From Methanosarcina horonobensis HB-1 = JCM 15518 (GTDB lineage: Archaea; Halobacteriota; Methanosarcinia; Methanosarcinales; Methanosarcinaceae), in contig NZ_CP009516.1 in assembly GCF_000970285.1 (NCBI RefSeq), positions 3,823,036-3,887,035 on the forward strand: a stretch of 64,000 nucleotides of DNA, in the 5' to 3' direction. Positions 2,796 to 12,377 of this stretch are shown here, in pieces. The notes under the pieces were generated by a model. It was not told the DNA's origin. It did no database searches and was given only the letters and a program-made list of their open reading frames with translations. Every line of letters starts with the position of its first letter. Within the stretch, counting starts at the first letter, position 1. The position numbers were made by a program, and so were the translations under genes.

Positions 2796-5700
2796 TTAAA
2801 CACCCTTTGTTATTTCATCTGCAATTAATTCCGCCTGCCTAAGCACTGTTTCTGTAGCAAGTGCTTGCATATCAGGTGGATAACCATATTGCCTTAGTGT
2901 CCTTTTTACAATTACTTTTAATTTGGCCCTGACGCTTTCTTTAATTGTCCAGTCGATGGATGCGTTTTGTTTTACCTTTTCAAATAAAACAACAGCTAAT
3001 TCCCGTAATTGCTCTTTTTGCATTACTTCCCTGGCACTTTCATTATCTGCAATTGCCGTGTAAAAAGCATATTCAAATTCAGACAAGCCCATTTCTTGAG
3101 GCTCTTTGTCCATCCGTTTAATCTCTTTACTGAGTTTAATTAGTTCCTCAATGACCTCAGCCGCAGTTAATACCTTGTTATGATATTTCACGATAGAATT
3201 TTCCAGCATTTCCATTAATGATCTGCTCTGAATAAGGTTCTTCTTTGTGCGAGCTCTTATTTCGTCATTGAGCAACTTTTTCAAAACCTCCAGAGCCAGA
3301 TTTTTGTGTTCCATATTCCGGACTTCTAAAAGGAAATCCTCTGATAATATGGAAATATCCGGTTTTTTAATTCCGGCTGCATCAAATACATCTATCACCT
3401 GTTCGGTAACAAGGGCCTTATCAATAACCTGCCTGATCGCGGTCTCAATTTCCTCGTCTGTTTTACCTGTTCCGGTACCGTCAAATTTAACAAGTCTGGC
3501 TTTTACTGCCTGATAGAACGAGATTTCGTCCTTTACATCCATTGCCTGTTCGTGCGGGATAGCAAGGGAAAATGCCTTTGATAAAGCAGTTACTTCATCA
3601 ATGTACCTTTTTTTGCCATTTTCCAGACCCAGGATATGTTCTTCTGCTTCAAGTATGATTGACAGCTTTCTGGATGTATCCGCTTCAAAGTAATCATCGA
3701 AGGTAAATCCGTGAAACATCTGTGATACAATCTCCAGTTTCTCAAGCATTAACTGAACTGCTTTTTCCTGAAGTACAGCAGGATCTCCCTTCCCTCCGCT
3801 GTCAGAATAGAAAGATAAAGCTTCTTTTAAGTCGGAAGCTATTCCCAGATAATCAACGATCAGGCTGCCGGGCTTGTCTTTATAGACGCGGTTTACCCGT
3901 GAGATCGCCTGCATGAGGGTATGACCTTTCATCGGCTTATCGATGTACATTGTGTGAAGACACGGAACATCAAAACCTGTAAGCCACATATCCCGGACAA
4001 TTACCAGTTTCAGTTCGTCCTCCGGGTCTTTCATTCGTTCTGCTAAAGCTCTTCTTTGATCTTTTGTAGTATGATGTTTCGATATTTTTGGACCATCGGA
4101 GGATGCTGAGGTCATGACGACCTTGATGGCACCTTTTCGGAGGTCATCACTGTGCCATTCCGGTTTTATCTTAATAATTTCATCATACAGGTCGGCAGCT
4201 ATCCTTCGTGACATTGTAACGATCATCCCTTTGCCTTCGAACACTTCCTGTCTTTGTTCGAAGTGAGTTACAATATCCTGTGCGATCTGTTCTATCCGGG
4301 CCTCACTACCTATTAAGGCTTCCAGTTGGGTCCATTTCGCTTTGATTTTTTGGGTTTCTGCAAGGTCTTCTTTATCCAGCTCTTCATCCAGCTCTGCGAC
4401 AAGTTTTTTTCCTTCACTGCTAAGAGCGACTTTTGCCAGCCTGCTCTCATAATATATCTTTACTGTGGCGCCGTCCTCGACAGATTGTGATATATCATAG
4501 ATGTCAACATAATTGCCAAAAACAACAGGCGTGTTCACGTCTGTTTTTTCTATCGGCGTACCGGTAAAACCAAGGAAGGTGGCATTTGGCAGGGCATCAC
4601 GTGTGTATTTCGCAAAACCATAAACGATTTTTTTGCCGATTACGTTTCCTTGCTCATCTTTGACATCAACATTTTTTGCCTTGAAACCATATTGTGTCCG
4701 GTGTGCTTCGTCAGCTATGACAATGATGTTTTCCCGGTCTGAGAGTTTCGGGTAAACGTTGCCTTCTTCAGGCTGGAATTTCTGGATGGTGGTAAATACG
4801 ATTCCACCTGATGCGACGTTTAAGAGTTGTTTCAAATGGTCCCTGTTCTCTGCCTGCACAGGTTCCTGCCTCAGAAGTTGCTTTGAAGCGGCAAATGTGT
4901 CAAAAAGCTGGTCGTCTAGATCGTTCCTGTCAGTGATCACCACCAGGGTGGGATTGTCCATTGCCAGCACGATTTTTCCTGTATAGAATACCATGGAAAG
5001 AGATTTGCCACTTCCCTGGGTGTGCCAGATGACACCGCCTTTCCGGTCCCCTACTGGCTGTTTTTTCACTCCGGGAAGACCATAACTTTCAGGACTTTCA
5101 TAATGTATACCTAAAGTATTCCAATCCCAGTTTTCCTTTGCAGCATAACCCGATGCTCTGAGTGTCGATTCTACCGCCCGGTTAACTGCATAGTACTGAT
5201 GATATGAAGCGAGCTTCTTTACGGTTTGAATAGTAATAATACCTGTTGCCGAGTCTTCTTTTTTTGATTTTTCAAATACGATGAAGTGCCGGAAAATATC
5301 CAGGAGAGTGGTTTTTTCAAGCATCCCTTTAATGAGTGTTTCAAGTTGTCCGATGAGTGGTGAGGCTTCACCCCTTCCATCCGAGCTTTTCCATGCCATA
5401 AACCTGGTGAATCCTGCGGAAAGGGAACCTGACCTGGCTTCCAGGCCATCGGAGATGACCATAAAACCATTGTATGCAAATAAAGATGGGATGGTTTGTT
5501 TATAAGTCTGCATCTGCTTGAATGCAGATCTTACGGTTGCGTTCTCATCTGCAGGGTTCTTGAGCTCGATAACCACAAGAGGCAGACCGTTTACAAAGAG
5601 GATGATGTCAGGACGTTTGTTCTTATCGTTCTCAACAATAGTGAATTGATTGGCAACAAGGAAATCATTATTTTCAGGATCGTTAAAATCAACCAGCCAG

Positions 5701-6035
5701 ACCAGATCGCCCCTGTCTGCTCCTTCTTTTCGGTAGCTTACGTTTATGCCCTCTGTAAGCATCCTGTGAAACGCCTCGTTGTTGGAGATCAGTTCAGGAG
5801 AGTTCAGGCGCCGAACCTGCCTGATAGCGTCTTCCCTTGCATCTGCCGGAATGTCGGTATTGATCCTCGCAACTGCTTTTCGCAGGCGTTCTAACAATAA
5901 CACATCCTCAAACCTTTCCCGTTCAGGAGTTTCGCTATCTGGGGCAATGGTCGGGGCATAGATATACTGGTAACCCTGTTTCTCAAGAAGATTAATAGCT
6001 AAATCTTCTATTTCGGATTCGGTTATTTTTATCAT
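2796..6035 (-). CDS. hsdR: Type I restriction enzyme, R (endonuclease/translocase) subunit
   Basis: Motor and nuclease subunit that binds the M2S core, translocates DNA with ATP and cuts unmethylated DNA. At 1079 aa it has the usual length. The N-terminal PD-(D/E)XK nuclease is visible as RPDIILF...VIELK (D143, E157, K159). The superfamily 2 helicase has Walker A QGSGKS (about 340-345), Walker B DEAH (about 442-445) and FTGTP (motif III). The helical C-terminal region contacts the methylase. Its ATG overlaps the TGA of the HEPN-like gene by 4 bases, so the two are translationally coupled. No frameshift is seen, and all catalytic motifs are intact. Confidence 0.95.
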   Translation of the reverse strand: MIKITESEIEDLAINLLEKQGYQYIYAPTIAPDSETPERERFEDVLLLERLRKAVARINTDIPADAREDAIRQVRRLNSPELISNNEAFHRMLTEGINVSYRKEGADRGDLVWLVDFNDPENNDFLVANQFTIVENDKNKRPDIILFVNGLPLVVIELKNPADENATVRSAFKQMQTYKQTIPSLFAYNGFMVISDGLEARSGSLSAGFTRFMAWKSSDGRGEASPLIGQLETLIKGMLEKTTLLDIFRHFIVFEKSKKEDSATGIITIQTVKKLASYHQYYAVNRAVESTLRASGYAAKENWDWNTLGIHYESPESYGLPGVKKQPVGDRKGGVIWHTQGSGKSLSMVFYTGKIVLAMDNPTLVVITDRNDLDDQLFDTFAASKQLLRQEPVQAENRDHLKQLLNVASGGIVFTTIQKFQPEEGNVYPKLSDRENIIVIADEAHRTQYGFKAKNVDVKDEQGNVIGKKIVYGFAKYTRDALPNATFLGFTGTPIEKTDVNTPVVFGNYVDIYDISQSVEDGATVKIYYESRLAKVALSSEGKKLVAELDEELDKEDLAETQKIKAKWTQLEALIGSEARIEQIAQDIVTHFEQRQEVFEGKGMIVTMSRRIAADLYDEIIKIKPEWHSDDLRKGAIKVVMTSASSDGPKISKHHTTKDQRRALAERMKDPEDELKLVIVRDMWLTGFDVPCLHTMYIDKPMKGHTLMQAISRVNRVYKDKPGSLIVDYLGIASDLKEALSFYSDSGGKGDPAVLQEKAVQLMLEKLEIVSQMFHGFTFDDYFEADTSRKLSIILEAEEHILGLENGKKRYIDEVTALSKAFSLAIPHEQAMDVKDEISFYQAVKARLVKFDGTGTGKTDEEIETAIRQVIDKALVTEQVIDVFDAAGIKKPDISILSEDFLLEVRNMEHKNLALEVLKKLLNDEIRARTKKNLIQSRSLMEMLENSIVKYHNKVLTAAEVIEELIKLSKEIKRMDKEPQEMGLSEFEYAFYTAIADNESAREVMQKEQLRELAVVLFEKVKQNASIDWTIKESVRAKLKVIVKRTLRQYGYPPDMQALATETVLRQAELIADEITKGV

Positions 6036-7051
6036 AATAGAGCCCCAAGAGAAACATTAATGCAATTTGGTATATGTGTAGGATTTATGGCAATCTCGCG
6101 ATTGGTACCACCAATTAGTTCAAACAAATAATTGCCTGCAGAATCAATTTTTTTAAAGTAACACAACTTTATTTGAGAACCTTCATGATAGAAATGGATA
6201 AAAGGAGATACGTTAAAAACACTATTGAACTCTATTAAAATACATTGATTATTTAATATTGATGTGCAAAGTGATAAATCAGGATCTGAAAGTGTTATAT
6301 CATAATTTTGTTTTTGTAATGAATGACCTCCAAACTTATTAAACCTGACTTTATGAATATCACCCAAATTGTTTACATATCTTAACAACGACACATTTTC
6401 CAGAAAATCTAATTCAAAAAGCAAGTCTAAAACTTTTGGAGAAAGTTCATCATATCTTTCTTTTGCTTCTTGTTCGGATAAAGCCGCTATATGTGAGAAA
6501 GAATTTCTTCCTTGGTTCAATTCCTTAATTAATTCAAATGTACCTGTATTTATACAAGACGAGATCTTTAATTCATTTTGATTTTGTTTATCGTACTCAA
6601 TAATTTTTTCCATTGCTTCAACTTTCCACCCTAATTTGTCGCTCATTAGTCCTCTATGGTCTTGTTTAATCTTTTGACCATCAAATATTCGCACATTGTT
6701 CAATGAAAATCCTTTGACATTAACCTCGCCAAGAACTAAACCATAGAGAACATAAATTAAGGCTTCCCAAGTTGATCTCAAAAGTTGTAATCGGTGTTGC
6801 TCATTATCATAAGCTCTTTCTGTCTGATGATAAAAGTAGGCAATTGGTGCAGGGAAACTGTCGTAAACAACTTGAGGAAAATCTTCTTTTTTTTGATCAA
6901 CATATTCACGTAACTGTTCATTGTATGCGGTTTCATCCATTTCAAATAGAATATAACTTGGCGGTTCGTCAAAGTTAGAACCAATATAAATATTCCCCCC
7001 TTCATCTAGAAACGACTCAAACTCTTCTCGATATTTTTGGTAGTCCGTCAC
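6032..7051 (-). CDS. HEPN-like protein inside the type I RM operon
   Basis: 339 aa, not a known core subunit. It is alpha-helical in its first two thirds. Around residues 190-235 it carries GRNSFSH, which fits the R-(polar)-x3-H catalytic motif (RX4-6H) of HEPN ribonucleases, followed by an acidic helical stretch (SEQEAKERYDELSPKVLDLLFELDFL), as HEPN domains often have. The last ~100 residues look like beta strands. The start is the GTG at 7049-7051, which overlaps the hsdS TGA; the frame extends further upstream but inside hsdS. Its position between hsdS and hsdR, with 4-base overlaps on both sides, shows co-expression. PrrC and RloC are HEPN-superfamily nucleases known to pair with type I RM, but they carry ATPase domains that are absent here. 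The HEPN assignment rests on motif and context only. Confidence 0.72.
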   Translation of the reverse strand: MTDYQKYREEFESFLDEGGNIYIGSNFDEPPSYILFEMDETAYNEQLREYVDQKKEDFPQVVYDSFPAPIAYFYHQTERAYDNEQHRLQLLRSTWEALIYVLYGLVLGEVNVKGFSLNNVRIFDGQKIKQDHRGLMSDKLGWKVEAMEKIIEYDKQNQNELKISSCINTGTFELIKELNQGRNSFSHIAALSEQEAKERYDELSPKVLDLLFELDFLENVSLLRYVNNLGDIHKVRFNKFGGHSLQKQNYDITLSDPDLSLCTSILNNQCILIEFNSVFNVSPFIHFYHEGSQIKLCYFKKIDSAGNYLFELIGGTNREIAINPTHIPNCINVSLGALL

Positions 7052-8163
7052 AATTCCACCCTCAGTTCCCCACTCATCAGTTTCGGCAGCAGAGCATCCC
7101 GCAGCTTTTCGAGGGTGTAAATTTGATTTACATTTTCCCAACATTTCATGTGAATTGGTTCTAATGTCTTTAGCGTCTTAATTTGCAGTTCTATTGGAGG
7201 TAATTTTAATTTGAATTTACGGAAGTCTTTGAGCACAATTCTTGGAATAACAGCACCAGTTACAATGTTCTCCAAAGCTTCACAAGTAGAATTCATTTTT
7301 AAGTATATTGAAAGCAATAATGGGTTATACTTTCCATTTGGTCTTAAAATTGCGATTGATGAAAGAATCACTAAATCCAAGTCATTTGGTGCAACAAAAA
7401 CATGTTTCAAATAGCTTCCATCTTTAGCAATGATAATATCATTTTTTAAAGGACGGCAGTCATTGCGTACCAATTCCTCAAAATCCGATTCAGAGATTTT
7501 CCTGCAAGAATCAAGGTGAATACCCCACTGGTGCATGTCCTTGACAGATGCCATCGGTAATCCAACTTCAACTGTAGGGGGACTTTTATGTGCACCGTCA
7601 GTTATTTTTTGGGTTACGTATTCTAAATCAACTTCTTCCCATCCCTCATCAGCTTCCTCCACAAACCACTGCTTGAACAGCGTTTCTGCCATAGCTTCAA
7701 GGGTTTTGTTCTGGCGGTGGAGCAGGTCAATCTTGTCGTCGAGGCTGGAAAGGACAGAGGCGATGGAGCGTTGTTCGGGGAGAGGGGGAATAACGACATC
7801 AATTGGATGAATATGATTTCTGTTTAACGTTGGTACCGCGCTTCCAACATTGAATTGTTTAAAGTCAAATGTTTTTAAAAAATAGTAGATAAATAACTCA
7901 TCATTCCCTTTAAAATCTTTGACATACAATGTTGTATTGTGTGCCCAAAAGTCAACGTTATAAAAATAAGCGTTACCCAAATTGCCACTTCTGCCGATTG
8001 TAATTCCGGGTGCTTTTGTGGTAGCTTCATTATGATAGCCAATGATTCCATTTGAACCTGCAACAGGAATCGTACCATTCATCATTTTACTTTTTGGTAA
8101 ATCATGTCCCCTTTGTAGAGTTATTACGTCCCCCAACTTACATTCCTTCCACTCACCCGTCAT
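7048..8163 (-). CDS. hsdS: Type I restriction-modification specificity subunit
   Basis: DNA-recognition subunit of the M2S methylase and of the full R2M2S complex. 371 aa with two target-recognition domains. TRD1 covers about residues 1-125 and ends in the conserved IPPLPEQRSIASVLSSLDDKI spacer start. A helical spacer with LLHRQNKTLEAMAETLFKQWF follows. TRD2 covers about 175-315, and the second spacer contains LRDALLPKLMSGELRV. The ATG at 8163 overlaps the upstream ORF6N gene by 4 bases, and the stop overlaps the downstream HEPN-like gene. Both TRDs appear complete, so it should recognise a normal bipartite sequence that cannot be predicted by eye. Confidence 0.93.
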   Translation of the reverse strand: MTGEWKECKLGDVITLQRGHDLPKSKMMNGTIPVAGSNGIIGYHNEATTKAPGITIGRSGNLGNAYFYNVDFWAHNTTLYVKDFKGNDELFIYYFLKTFDFKQFNVGSAVPTLNRNHIHPIDVVIPPLPEQRSIASVLSSLDDKIDLLHRQNKTLEAMAETLFKQWFVEEADEGWEEVDLEYVTQKITDGAHKSPPTVEVGLPMASVKDMHQWGIHLDSCRKISESDFEELVRNDCRPLKNDIIIAKDGSYLKHVFVAPNDLDLVILSSIAILRPNGKYNPLLLSIYLKMNSTCEALENIVTGAVIPRIVLKDFRKFKLKLPPIELQIKTLKTLEPIHMKCWENVNQIYTLEKLRDALLPKLMSGELRVEL

Positions 8164-9086
8164 TTCATCCCCTCCAGCCTTGTGAGCATCTCAACTGCTC
8201 CGATGTCCATTTTTGAGAAGGCGAACCACTTCTTTCCGAGGTCTTTCAGGGAAGCGCCGAAGTGGTATAGGTCGGTGTTGTCTATTATGATGAACCTGTC
8301 GTGGGCGCTTTTGAATTCCCTGAGTTCGACTGGCGGGTACTGCTCGTTGCACTTATTCACATCCTGGGCCAGGGCTCTGGTCGGGTTCCTCGTGAAGAGC
8401 AGGACCTTCACTCCCTTCTTCCGCTTCGTGAGTAGGGTCAGGACGCTATCGTCCAGATAGTTGTCTATGATGGTTATCGACTTCTTCGCGCTCATGAATA
8501 GATCGGAGACGAATATGTAGGCGTCGAATACCTGGCCGTCGTAGAAGATGCCCTGCTTCGGCTTTATCTCCCTGGACTCTATGGCAACCAGGACCTTTTC
8601 CATCTTTTTGTCAGTCTCGAGTTGCTTGAGTTCGAGCGTGTCCAGTCGCTGGAATATCTGTGCGTTGGCAAGGATGAATTTACGCATGGCGACGAAGGCG
8701 TTGATTATCCTGACGCTCATCTCCACCGCGACATCGCTTCTCAGAACAGCCGAGAGCATGGCCACTCCCTGTTCGGTGAACGCGTACGGCAAGTATTTTC
8801 GATGCTTCCCGCGCCTGCTTTCTAAGGTCACATCCTGTGATGTTAAAGCTCCATCATTCTCTAAGGTCACAATTTGTGATCTTAAACGTTCATATTCCCC
8901 GGCGGTCAATTGAAAACAGAACTGCTCCGGGAACCTGTCTTTGTTTCTTTTGACCGCCTGGTTTAATATCCTGGTCTCAACATGATAAAGAGCGGCCAGA
9001 TCCCCATCCAGCATCACCTGTACGCCTCGAATCGTGTAGATCCGGCTTTGGATGCCCTCGACGACCATCAATTCATTCCTAGTCAT
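8160..9086 (-). CDS. ORF6N domain protein with C-terminal phospholipase-D-like domain
   Basis: 308 aa. Residues ~8-95 form an ORF6N (KilA-N-related) DNA-binding domain: [23 protein letters not shown] and [11 protein letters not shown]-type motifs, then the [17 protein letters not shown] block. A short coiled region follows (about 125-170). The C-terminal ~140 residues contain [30 protein letters not shown] and [25 protein letters not shown], a single PLD-like half-site in which the HxK motif is altered to HDR. ORF6N proteins are common in phages and near hsd genes, but their role there is unsettled. It overlaps hsdM and hsdS by 4 bases each, so it is made with the RM complex. Confidence 0.85.
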
Positions 9087-10600
9087 TCAAGCTTCACCTT
9101 TTTCAGATTCTCGGCGACCAGCAGGTTCAGTCTCTCTTCCTCTTTCAACTGCTCCTCGAGCTCGGCTTTCAGCGCGGTGAACCGTTCATTGAAATCAAAA
9201 TCATCCTCATCATCCGGCAATCCCACATAACGCCCCGGCGTCAGCACATAGTCCAGTTCACGCACCCGTTCAATTGGAGCAGAATTGCAGAATCCTTTCA
9301 CATCTTCGTAATTCCCGTCAGGATTGCGCCAGTTATGGTAGGTGCTCGCGATCTCCTGTATATCCTCAGATGAGAATTCACGGGTTCTGCGGTTTATCAG
9401 ATGTCCCATGTTCCGTGCATCGATGAACAGGATCTCATCTGTTCTGTTCCTGTACCTGCCATTGGATTTGTTTCTGCTCAGGAACCAGAGGCTGGCCGGG
9501 ATCTGGGTATTCAGGAATAGTTTTGGCGGAAGGTTTACTATACAGTCCACTAAGCGTGCCTCCACAAGCTCTTTCCTGATATCTCCCTCTCCCGATGACT
9601 TGGACGTCAGGGAACCTTTAGCCAGAACAAAACCGGCCTGACCGCTCGGACCTAAATGATAAAGAAAGTGCTGTATCCAGGCATAATTAGCATTTCCGGC
9701 TGGCGGAACACCATACTTCCATCTTCCATCCTTGCGTAATAGATCGCCACTCCAGTCGCTGTCATTGAAAGGTGGATTAGCTATGACATAATCCGCTTTC
9801 AGGTCTTTGTGGGCATCATTCAGGAAAGAACCTTCATTGTTCCATTTAACTTGGGAGCTATCAATGCTTCTGATGGCGAGATTCATTTTTGCCAGCCGCC
9901 ACGTTGTCTGGTTGCTCTCCTGCCCATAGATCGATATATCGTTTATTTTTCCCTGATGGTCGGCAACAAACTTCTCCGACTGCACAAACATGCCACCGGA
10001 ACCGCAGCATGGGTCAAAGACCCGGCCATTGTAGGGTTCCAGCATTTCTACCAGTAACTCAACAACACTTCTCGGAGTGTAGAACTGTCCACCCTTTTTT
10101 CCTTCTGCCAGAGCAAATTCACCAAGGAAATATTCGAAAACATGACCAAGAACATCAGCACTTCTGTTTTTGGCATCTCCAAGAGCAATATTGCTCACCA
10201 GATCGATCAGACCGCCAAGATTTGTAGGGTCAAGATTGCCCCGTGCATATACCTTTGGTAAAACCCCTCTAAGCAAAGGATTCTCTTTTTCGATGGCATC
10301 CATTGCATTATCAACAGCTTTACCGATTTCTGGTTTTTTAGCTTCTGACTGCAAGTATGACCAACGGGCAATTGTGGGTACAAAGAATACATTCTCAGCT
10401 TTGTATTCATCCCTGTCTTCAGGATCCGCACCAGCATACTCTCCTTCCCCTTGTTGCAATTTTTCATATAATTCCTCAAAGGCATCTGAGATGTATCTTA
10501 GGAAAATCAAGCCCAAGACTATGTGCTTATACTCAGCAGCATCAATATTTTTTCGAAGTTTGTCTGCCGCTTTCCACAATTGCTTTTCAAAATCACTCAT
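9083..10600 (-). CDS. hsdM: Type I restriction-modification methyltransferase subunit
   Basis: N6-adenine DNA methyltransferase subunit; two copies join one HsdS. 505 aa. The N-terminal helical HsdM_N domain (about 1-130, starting [20 protein letters not shown]) is followed by the gamma-class methylase domain. This has the SAM-binding motif [13 protein letters not shown] (about 195-206) and catalytic motif IV ANPPF (about 273-277). A charged C-terminal helix ([19 protein letters not shown]) probably contacts HsdS. It is the first gene of the five-gene leftward operon, and the long AT-rich region to its right must hold the promoter. No damage is visible. Confidence 0.96.
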
Positions 10601-11531: not shown

Positions 11532-12377
11532 ATGGTTTATTACTATAGTTTAAGAAGACAAGAGACTGAACTCAAGATATTGTTTACAACTGGCGTTATT
11601 TTTTCTTTTTTTATATGTTACATAGAAAAATATATTTCAGGATTTACGGCTATTTTACTATTTTTTATGTATATCTACAGTTTAATGTCATTCTCTCCAA
11701 ATATTTTTAAGTTAGTCATCAACAATATTTTCGCGGTTATAATAATCTGTTTGTCATTTTTTGCAATTTTATTTTGGTATTTTAAGATTGATGCATTACC
11801 TATGGGAAGTATAAATGACAATCAAATGCTCATTTTTGTTACATTACTTTATGTATTTTTGACTTATAAAACAATGAAAAGTAATTTTTCAATATATCAA
11901 CATCAAAGAATGCCTCAGTTGCTTATAGATATTGCAAATAATGATAGTAAAGCGCTATTTATGATTAAAAATATAAGCGATTTCCATGCTGTAGAGTTAC
12001 TTGTTACATTTGAAATATTGTATCCAATACCAGTTAGCACATTTTCAACAATAAAATTGTTTATAGTAAGAAGTCTTTTCAAAAAGAGAAAAAATGACTA
12101 TATAATTCATTATTTCTTAGAATATCTTGAACCAAAAAGCACTGCAGATCTTGATATAGAACAGGAAATCCAATGTTTAATAGATAAAGAAGCCATTACA
12201 AAAAAAAGAGGGTTAGACATAATAGGTGAAGATCTTCATGTTATTGTGAAATATGAGTATAAATCATTAGATAATTTAGACTTAGAAAAACCGTTTTATA
12301 AGCGTTTCAAATTCAAGATACATCCTACAGGAAGTAAACTAGTGCATAAAAGTGGCAATCCAGTTAAATTAGATTGA
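11532..12377 (+). CDS. Membrane protein with cytoplasmic tail, unknown function
   Basis: 281 aa. The first ~115 residues contain four hydrophobic segments (about 14-30, 36-53, 62-83 and 98-112). The rest is soluble and charged, beginning KTMKSNFSIYQHQRMPQLLIDI and containing a run typical of beta strands (ALFMIKNISDFHAVELLVTFEILY). The codon use is very AT-rich. It lies on the island side of the zinc-ribbon repeats, divergent from the hsd operon, and between two ~100-bp direct repeats. A GTG or ATG start is not available upstream; the reported ATG at 11532 has no clear ribosome binding site. I do not recognise the family. The membrane-plus-sensor-like layout next to RM genes makes a defence role possible but unproven. 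Confidence 0.65.
   Translation: MVYYYSLRRQETELKILFTTGVIFSFFICYIEKYISGFTAILLFFMYIYSLMSFSPNIFKLVINNIFAVIIICLSFFAILFWYFKIDALPMGSINDNQMLIFVTLLYVFLTYKTMKSNFSIYQHQRMPQLLIDIANNDSKALFMIKNISDFHAVELLVTFEILYPIPVSTFSTIKLFIVRSLFKKRKNDYIIHYFLEYLEPKSTADLDIEQEIQCLIDKEAITKKRGLDIIGEDLHVIVKYEYKSLDNLDLEKPFYKRFKFKIHPTGSKLVHKSGNPVKLD

Follow-up and report, generated by a model that had tools for sequence, protein, structure and literature searches.

The window considered here is a stretch of 64,000 nucleotides from the genome of Methanosarcina horonobensis HB-1 (5.02 Mb, one contig), and its subject is a type I restriction-modification (RM) operon that carries two accessory genes. On the minus strand the order is hsdM, ORF6N, hsdS, HEPN-like and hsdR, with all five frames intact (Table 1), and the presence of HsdM, HsdS and HsdR Pfam domains within one operon identifies it as type I RM. 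Pfam support is strong for these three proteins and for the ORF6N protein, while the HEPN assignment is sub-threshold. We call the position between hsdM and hsdS, where the ORF6N gene lies, the M/S slot, and the position between hsdS and hsdR, where the HEPN-like gene lies, the S/R slot. Each accessory gene turns out to be interchangeable cargo of one slot and not a fixed part of the operon, and the N-terminal end of the HEPN-like protein, which we call the adaptor, recurs on unrelated effectors whose genes also precede hsdR.

Table 1. Features of the operon in the window (window coordinates).
Feature	Coordinates	Strand	Details
hsdM, N6-adenine methyltransferase subunit	9083..10600	-	505 residues; Pfam N6_Mtase 2e-109, HsdM_N 5e-27
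ORF6N-PLD accessory gene, M/S slot	8160..9086	-	308 residues; Pfam ORF6N 7.8e-34; PADLOC PDC-S05
ORF6N domain, residues 15-114	8745..9044	-	Pfam
HxR-x4-D motif HDRFIIID, residues 262-269, then GAS	8280..8303	-	Alignment of homologues from the order
hsdS, specificity subunit	7048..8163	-	371 residues; Pfam Methylase_S 8.2e-33
HEPN-like accessory gene, S/R slot, GTG start	6032..7051	-	339 residues
N-terminal adaptor domain, residues ~1-58, common to SIR2 and Abi_C effectors of S/R slots	6878..7051	-	
R-N-x3-H motif (R182, N183, H187), HEPN-type	6491..6508	-	Kept in 4/4 family members
C-terminal, possibly beta-rich part, residues 232-339	6035..6358	-	Low-confidence model
hsdR, helicase-nuclease subunit, T1RH-like C-terminal domain	2796..6035	-	1079 residues; Pfam HSDR_N 8.9e-56, SWI2_SNF2 4.9e-75, T1RH-like_C 9.3e-131

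The original prediction took the exact 4-base stop/start overlaps at all four junctions as the mark of a single coupled unit. The five-gene order and the overlaps (ATGA, ATGA, GTGA and ATGA) are confirmed. The HEPN-like start inside its overlap is a GTG. Starting instead at the ATG of position 7144 would lengthen the frame and make it overlap hsdS by more than 90 bases, but GTG is the better call because two of the three HEPN-like homologues (L039 and L067) have no in-frame start codon further upstream. As a junction format, the 4-base overlap is tidy but common and is not special to these five genes. In the other loci that we fetched, 65 of 261 adjacent same-strand pairs of open reading frames (ORFs) overlap by exactly four bases, and all 65 fall among the 238 pairs that include a non-core ORF, with none among the 23 core-core pairs. 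At that background rate the chance of four overlaps out of four is roughly 0.005 by our arithmetic.

Whether both accessory genes are kept was examined in a survey anchored on HsdR, which was matched at E<=1e-100 in 74 of 185 genomes of the order, after which the upstream DNA was fetched. This gave 13 other loci with a near-full-length HsdR at 83-96% identity. All three core genes are visible in ten of them (L039, L044, L046, L048, L052, L053, L055, L057, L059 and L077), while in the remaining three (G008, G024 and G036) the contig ends before hsdM, hsdS and hsdR have all been seen. Across the ten loci, identity to the window is 85-97% for HsdM, 81-96% for HsdR (the 81% figure being for the first 241 residues of L077) and only 32-41%, in the best segment, for HsdS; a conserved hsdM and hsdR with a variable hsdS would be an ordinary type I enzyme. 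Three of the ten (L044, L046 and L048) carry ORF6N at 294-299 residues, and one (L039) carries the HEPN gene. The two occur together in none of the ten, nor in any other surveyed locus, so consistent retention of the pair was not found, and the clade includes hsdMSR loci that miss one accessory gene or both, which is the first half of what the original prediction named as its refutation. The order M-S-HEPN-R without ORF6N occurs in genome G057 and in the Desulfobacterales locus L067, and M-ORF6N-S-R without HEPN in G113. In G282, which has the HEPN gene, an AlbA/Schlafen gene fills the M/S slot where the window has ORF6N. None of the operons of the three other full-length HEPN members contains an ORF6N gene.

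The HEPN-like protein carries R182-N183-x3-H187, which fits the R-x4-6-H pattern of HEPN domains and is also present in L039, L067 and L076. No significant HEPN profile match was obtained for the window protein or for these three homologues, and the protein is without a match in PADLOC, while nothing in Pfam or NCBIfam exceeds the cut-off for it. The motif nevertheless bears out the original prediction to the extent of a probable HEPN protein, one that is probably an RNase. There is no ATPase domain match, only a sub-threshold adenylate kinase hit (14.3 bits against a cut-off of 195). A search of solved structures by sequence gave nothing credible, and fold recognition had two sequences only as input, those of the window and L067. 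The C-terminal ~108 residues (6358-6035) are conserved along with the rest of the protein, and no family was found for them.

The HEPN-like protein was matched in four of the 185 genomes of the order, at full length only in its own genome and G057; the match in G041 is confined to residues 6-56, and that in G163 is weak and lies in a broken frame. A HEPN profile found four of 392 genomes of the window's own phylum (its own, G057 and two weak partial matches) and two of 395 Desulfobacterota genomes, namely G282 and G185, the metagenome-assembled genome from the Desulfobacterales that holds L067. A scan of contigs with two short peptide patterns returned one relative, again L067, although a pattern scan of this kind cannot show rarity. 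The profile found no relative among viral contigs, and HEPN queries against plasmids gave no match. All four full-length members lie between hsdS and hsdR, and signs of a specific link with the RM operon are seen for the HEPN gene, not for the accessory pair. PF18731, found in three of 39 related genomes that do not include the window's own, was not used as evidence.

The partial match in G041 (locus L040) is to a SIR2 protein (SIR2_2, 3.6e-19) that occupies the HEPN position. Its residues 7-56 match the HEPN-like protein of the window with 40% identity over 52 columns (E 6e-7, blastp among nine sequences). Among 968 ORFs from the fetched loci, a profile of the four HEPN proteins and no others picks out this SIR2 protein at 3.7e-8; in the other direction, a profile of two SIR2 proteins finds the HEPN-like proteins of L039 (1.6e-6) and L067 (1.6e-4). 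We then combined four HEPN and two SIR2 sequences into a six-row adaptor profile and searched genomes without imposing any RM condition. At E<=0.01 it matched seven of the 185 genomes of the order and seven of the 395 Desulfobacterota genomes, five in each set being at E<=1e-3. Six of the resulting ten genomes hold the seeds and four are new (G163, G568, G389 and G571). In all ten the adaptor gene is directly upstream of hsdR, and in eight it lies between a recognisable hsdS and hsdR, the number being eight and not ten because no hsdS was recognised in G568 and G389. The four weaker hits, at 0.001<E<=0.01 (G090, G101, G479 and G527), lie in fetched stretches (3.2 kb in one case) that show no hsd match, and are probably chance matches.

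In the four new genomes, the domain is at the C-terminus of a different protein. Pfam assigns those of G568, G389 and G571 to Abi_C, while the gene of G163 is broken and its pieces have no Pfam match. The adaptor is N-terminal in HEPN-like and SIR2 proteins and C-terminal in Abi_C proteins. No Pfam or NCBIfam family matched over it in the proteins scanned, and hhalign found no relation between it and the HsdR tail. Among the 27 loci of the HsdR survey that show both hsdS and hsdR, the adaptor is present in five (L082, L085, L090, L092 and L101), weakly in all but L090, and the HsdR-type T1RH-like_C tail in two others (L088 and L102). The four weak cases scored 0.0087-0.046 with the first profile; they are included in the 18-row alignment, so their later scores are circular.

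Plasmids were searched by tblastn, which matched 51 records with the Abi_C protein of L140 as query and 59 with the L040 SIR2 protein; 20 from each search were listed. Among the matches listed, the adaptor is covered by one match of the Abi_C query and three of the SIR2 query, and all four of these effectors are annotated between a restriction endonuclease subunit S and a subunit R. The hosts are Paraburkholderia, Ketogulonicigenium, Photobacterium and Vibrio, and the Photobacterium plasmid has one more gene between S and the SIR2 gene. We looked up ten of the other 36 listed matches, whose effectors lack the adaptor, and none of these is in the S/R slot; six of the ten were also compared with the adaptor profile, which matched none. 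A tblastn search of plasmids with the adaptor alone returned only the query records.

The slots hold many genes besides these. In a census of 44 loci with hsdS and hsdR genes (43 besides the window), labelled by BLAST matches to representatives, M/S and S/R cargo included RhuM, which also matches PADLOC PDC-S05, Fic, YhcG-type PDDEXK, AlbA/Schlafen, SIR2 and FRG proteins, an AAA_13 (RloC-like) ATPase, DUF3644 and a small protein of 83-90 residues, among others; Abi_C effectors also belong to the exchangeable cargo. The FRG-domain proteins of L088 (2510-3781, minus strand) and L102 (460-1743, minus strand) lie between hsdS and hsdR, match PADLOC PDC-S15 and end in an HsdR-type T1RH-like_C domain (49.6 and 29.7 bits, cut-off 26.8). 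Several loci carry what look like scars: the hsdS 3' end is present in more than one copy in seven of 73 scanned loci (L043, L048, L056, L079, L080, L084 and L100) and the hsdR 5' end in four of 73 (L048, L080, L084 and L097, the extra ends of L084 and L097 being weak at 32-37% identity), and the ORF6N 3' end is likewise repeated in L055. Such repeats would be expected if recombination had stacked cargo units.

Some cargo recurs in recognisable arrangements. A KwaB-like (Kiwa) gene occupies the S/R slot of a type I operon at L139:2502-3479 (+), preceded by a membrane-looking protein and sharing the slot with a broken adaptor-bearing gene. A Fic gene stands ahead of a truncated ORF6N gene in the M/S slot of L053, L055 and L059, and a pair of uncharacterised proteins of ~183 and 274 residues recurs in the S/R slot of L052, L055 and L059. 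The small 83-90 residue protein is found at L043:7866-8123 (-) and also in L041, L046, L048, L062 and L080, directly before hsdS in several loci; the one that was scanned matched no Pfam family above cut-off.

The ORF6N protein of the M/S slot matches the PADLOC PDC-S05 profile at 8e-124 over residues 6-305. Its C-terminal half lacks the canonical HxKx4D motif of PLD/HKD proteins and has in its place HxRx4D, which we take to be an HKD/PLD-like active site with R replacing the usual K. Of the 11 aligned sequences in which the region survives, 10 keep the motif (HDR-x4-D, with GAS further on), and the eleventh (L049) has Y for H. The earlier description of an ORF6N protein with a PLD-like tail is supported; a Pfam scan of the protein gave no PLD match. 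Relatives were matched in 25 of the 185 genomes of the order, with hsd genes around the best match in 17, the window's own included. The other eight (G061, G062, G134, G137, G172, G178, G180 and G183) have no hsd gene around it, some of these stretches being short contigs, and in G178 a second ORF6N fragment on another contig adjoins hsdM. Several copies are short or internally deleted, at 90-228 residues (L050, L052, L053, L055 and L059), and 13 relatives occur among viral contigs. The ORF6N-PLD gene probably serves defence independently or in loose coupling, and its protein is probably not bound to the HEPN function.

Upstream of hsdM and divergent from it, an ORF of 281 residues (window 11532-12377, plus strand) appears by eye to be membrane-bound. 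It has no match in Pfam, PADLOC or NCBIfam.

The reading that we favour, at a probability of about 0.5, is that of a type I RM operon in which two slots take exchangeable cargo and the N-terminal ~58 residues of the HEPN-like protein are a docking module for a probable RNase. The ORF6N-PLD gene of the PDC-S05 family in the M/S slot and the HEPN-like gene in the S/R slot are each one of many alternatives, and the same module is attached to SIR2 and Abi_C effectors in the S/R slot of other loci. The module may hold an effector on the RM complex in a silent state. Its likeliest partner would be HsdR, because the adaptor gene is directly upstream of hsdR in every case seen. Once the complex is blocked or overwhelmed, the effector would be freed or activated, following the example of PrrC-PrrI, and the HEPN-like protein would by analogy with PrrC be an RNase tethered in reserve. 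What is observed here is the order and overlap of the genes, the exchange of slot contents and a shared domain linked to hsdR, whereas the binding, the silencing, the trigger and the RNase activity are inferred. HsdR binds the methyltransferase core through its C-terminal region, and since the FRG effectors carry an HsdR-type tail, slot effectors may be able to dock on the RM complex; a second candidate for this role is the adaptor. SIR2 effectors are probably NAD-consuming and Abi_C proteins are HEPN-type, both families being typical suicide effectors. We hold somewhat more tentatively, a little short of even odds, that the adaptor is a general docking plug for interchangeable suicide effectors (HEPN RNases, SIR2 NADases and Abi_C proteins) and the RM enzyme a sensor platform whose failure releases the toxin, with FRG effectors having reached the same end via a borrowed HsdR C-terminal domain.

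Several observations weigh against this docking model. The HEPN assignment has behind it one motif and a sub-threshold Pfam match, HEPN_Swt1, at 13.7 bits against a cut-off of 27.5 (E=0.08). The AlphaFold model of the HEPN-like protein is poor (mean predicted local distance difference test score 43.6), with a middle part that is mostly helical, and Foldseek returned nothing at E<=0.001 and no reliable fold match with it. The HEPN family is rare, with four members seen. The four adaptor-bearing plasmid effectors score only ~11-18 bits with the first adaptor profile, which is modest, and an Abi_C protein of Salimicrobium that lacks the adaptor lies just downstream of hsdR. Adaptor similarity follows HsdR similarity weakly at best (rho 0.23 over all pairs, permutation p 0.016; rho 0.22, p 0.10 over cross-effector pairs) and does not track HsdM (p 0.35 and 0.40). 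We also hand-picked 14 records from 60 of 184 matching plasmid records, nine of which yielded 14 same-strand S/R cargo proteins, and none of the 14 carries the adaptor or the HsdR tail, so most slot cargo does without the adaptor.

This last result also favours passive embedding, that is, M/S and S/R junctions that are recombination hotspots and collect independent defence genes on a shared transcript, uncoupled from the RM enzyme. The very varied cargo, down to the KwaB-like gene, and the duplicated hsdS and hsdR ends would follow from it, and in the available text of PMC12255303 the place where hsdS meets hsdR is described as a potential recombination hotspot. Passive embedding does not account for one small domain that occurs on unrelated effectors, at either terminus, and was seen above threshold nowhere but immediately upstream of hsdR, nor for the HsdR-type domain at the end of the FRG effectors; we consider it the less likely account, though one to be taken seriously. 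It is rather improbable that the HEPN-like protein is instead a non-catalytic RNA-binding or assembly factor that tunes the synthesis or activity of HsdR. HEPN domains can be non-catalytic, as stated in the accessible part of PMC3710099, and the Pfam match here is sub-threshold, but R-N-x3-H is kept in all four members, and SIR2 and Abi_C proteins share this slot and adaptor. The obligate five-protein unit with fixed stoichiometry, as originally proposed from the four exact overlaps, is very improbable. The identical overlap format joins quite different cargo elsewhere, each accessory gene is seen without the other in the same hsdM/hsdR clade, and we reject the fixed unit, the survey having found no second locus with both.

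The layered role that had been suggested for the operon fares better in one part than in the other: cutting DNA and then disabling the cell is already a published hypothesis for RM loci with embedded HEPN and Sir2 genes, as set out in the accessible text of PMC3710099 and PMC3506569, while a fixed joint unit of the five proteins is not borne out. The same passages link at least 16 HEPN clades to RM (PMC3710099) and describe PrrC as silenced by PrrI and released upon disturbance of the enzyme (PMC3710099, PMC3506569). Like PrrC, the HEPN-like protein of the window is a probable HEPN-type RNase encoded within an hsd operon, and it would stay silent as long as RM is undisturbed; unlike PrrC, it has no ABC ATPase domain and has a short adaptor common to SIR2 and Abi_C proteins. 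Defence genes between or beside hsdS and hsdR are also known, with DarTG2 between the two genes (PMC12255303) and TgvAB and Campylobacter RloF inside type I operons (PMC11411939), but no shared adaptor domain is described in the available portions of these papers. AbiJ-NTD1-5, HEPN/RES-NTD1 and HEPN/Toprim-NTD1, from RM-associated HEPN families, are cases in which one N-terminal domain serves several effector classes, according to the part of PMC3710099 available to us; the present adaptor is set apart from them, by description only, in its length of ~58 residues, its position at either terminus and its gene directly before hsdR. The available parts of PMC12839542, PMC6158711 and PMC11514479 hold no closer match to this operon.

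PDC-S05 is the PADLOC family of ORF6N/RhuM candidates that the window gene resembles so closely, and it is listed in an archaeal survey (PMC12988326, seen in part). The HEPN-like gene differs from it in having no PADLOC match. It differs likewise from the 'guilt-by-embedding' candidates of Payne et al. 2024, which, according to papers that cite that work, were found embedded in immune operons. We recognised no paper, among the matches listed, on a domain that SIR2, Abi_C and HEPN effectors from type I operons have in common, which is weak evidence of absence as preprints and most subscription journals were outside the scope of the search. What is new here is this domain, whereas the ORF6N gene as PDC-S05 and the idea of cutting and then suicide were already known.

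Whether toxins embedded in RM operons are coupled to the enzyme or are just passengers was described as unclear in 2012, in the accessible text of PMC3506569, and we found no general answer since in the literature searched. A small domain that marks the RM-associated members of unrelated effector families is a handle on this coupling, as it can be deleted or transplanted. If the docking model is true, the adaptor would provide a sequence rule for separating coupled effectors from passive passengers.

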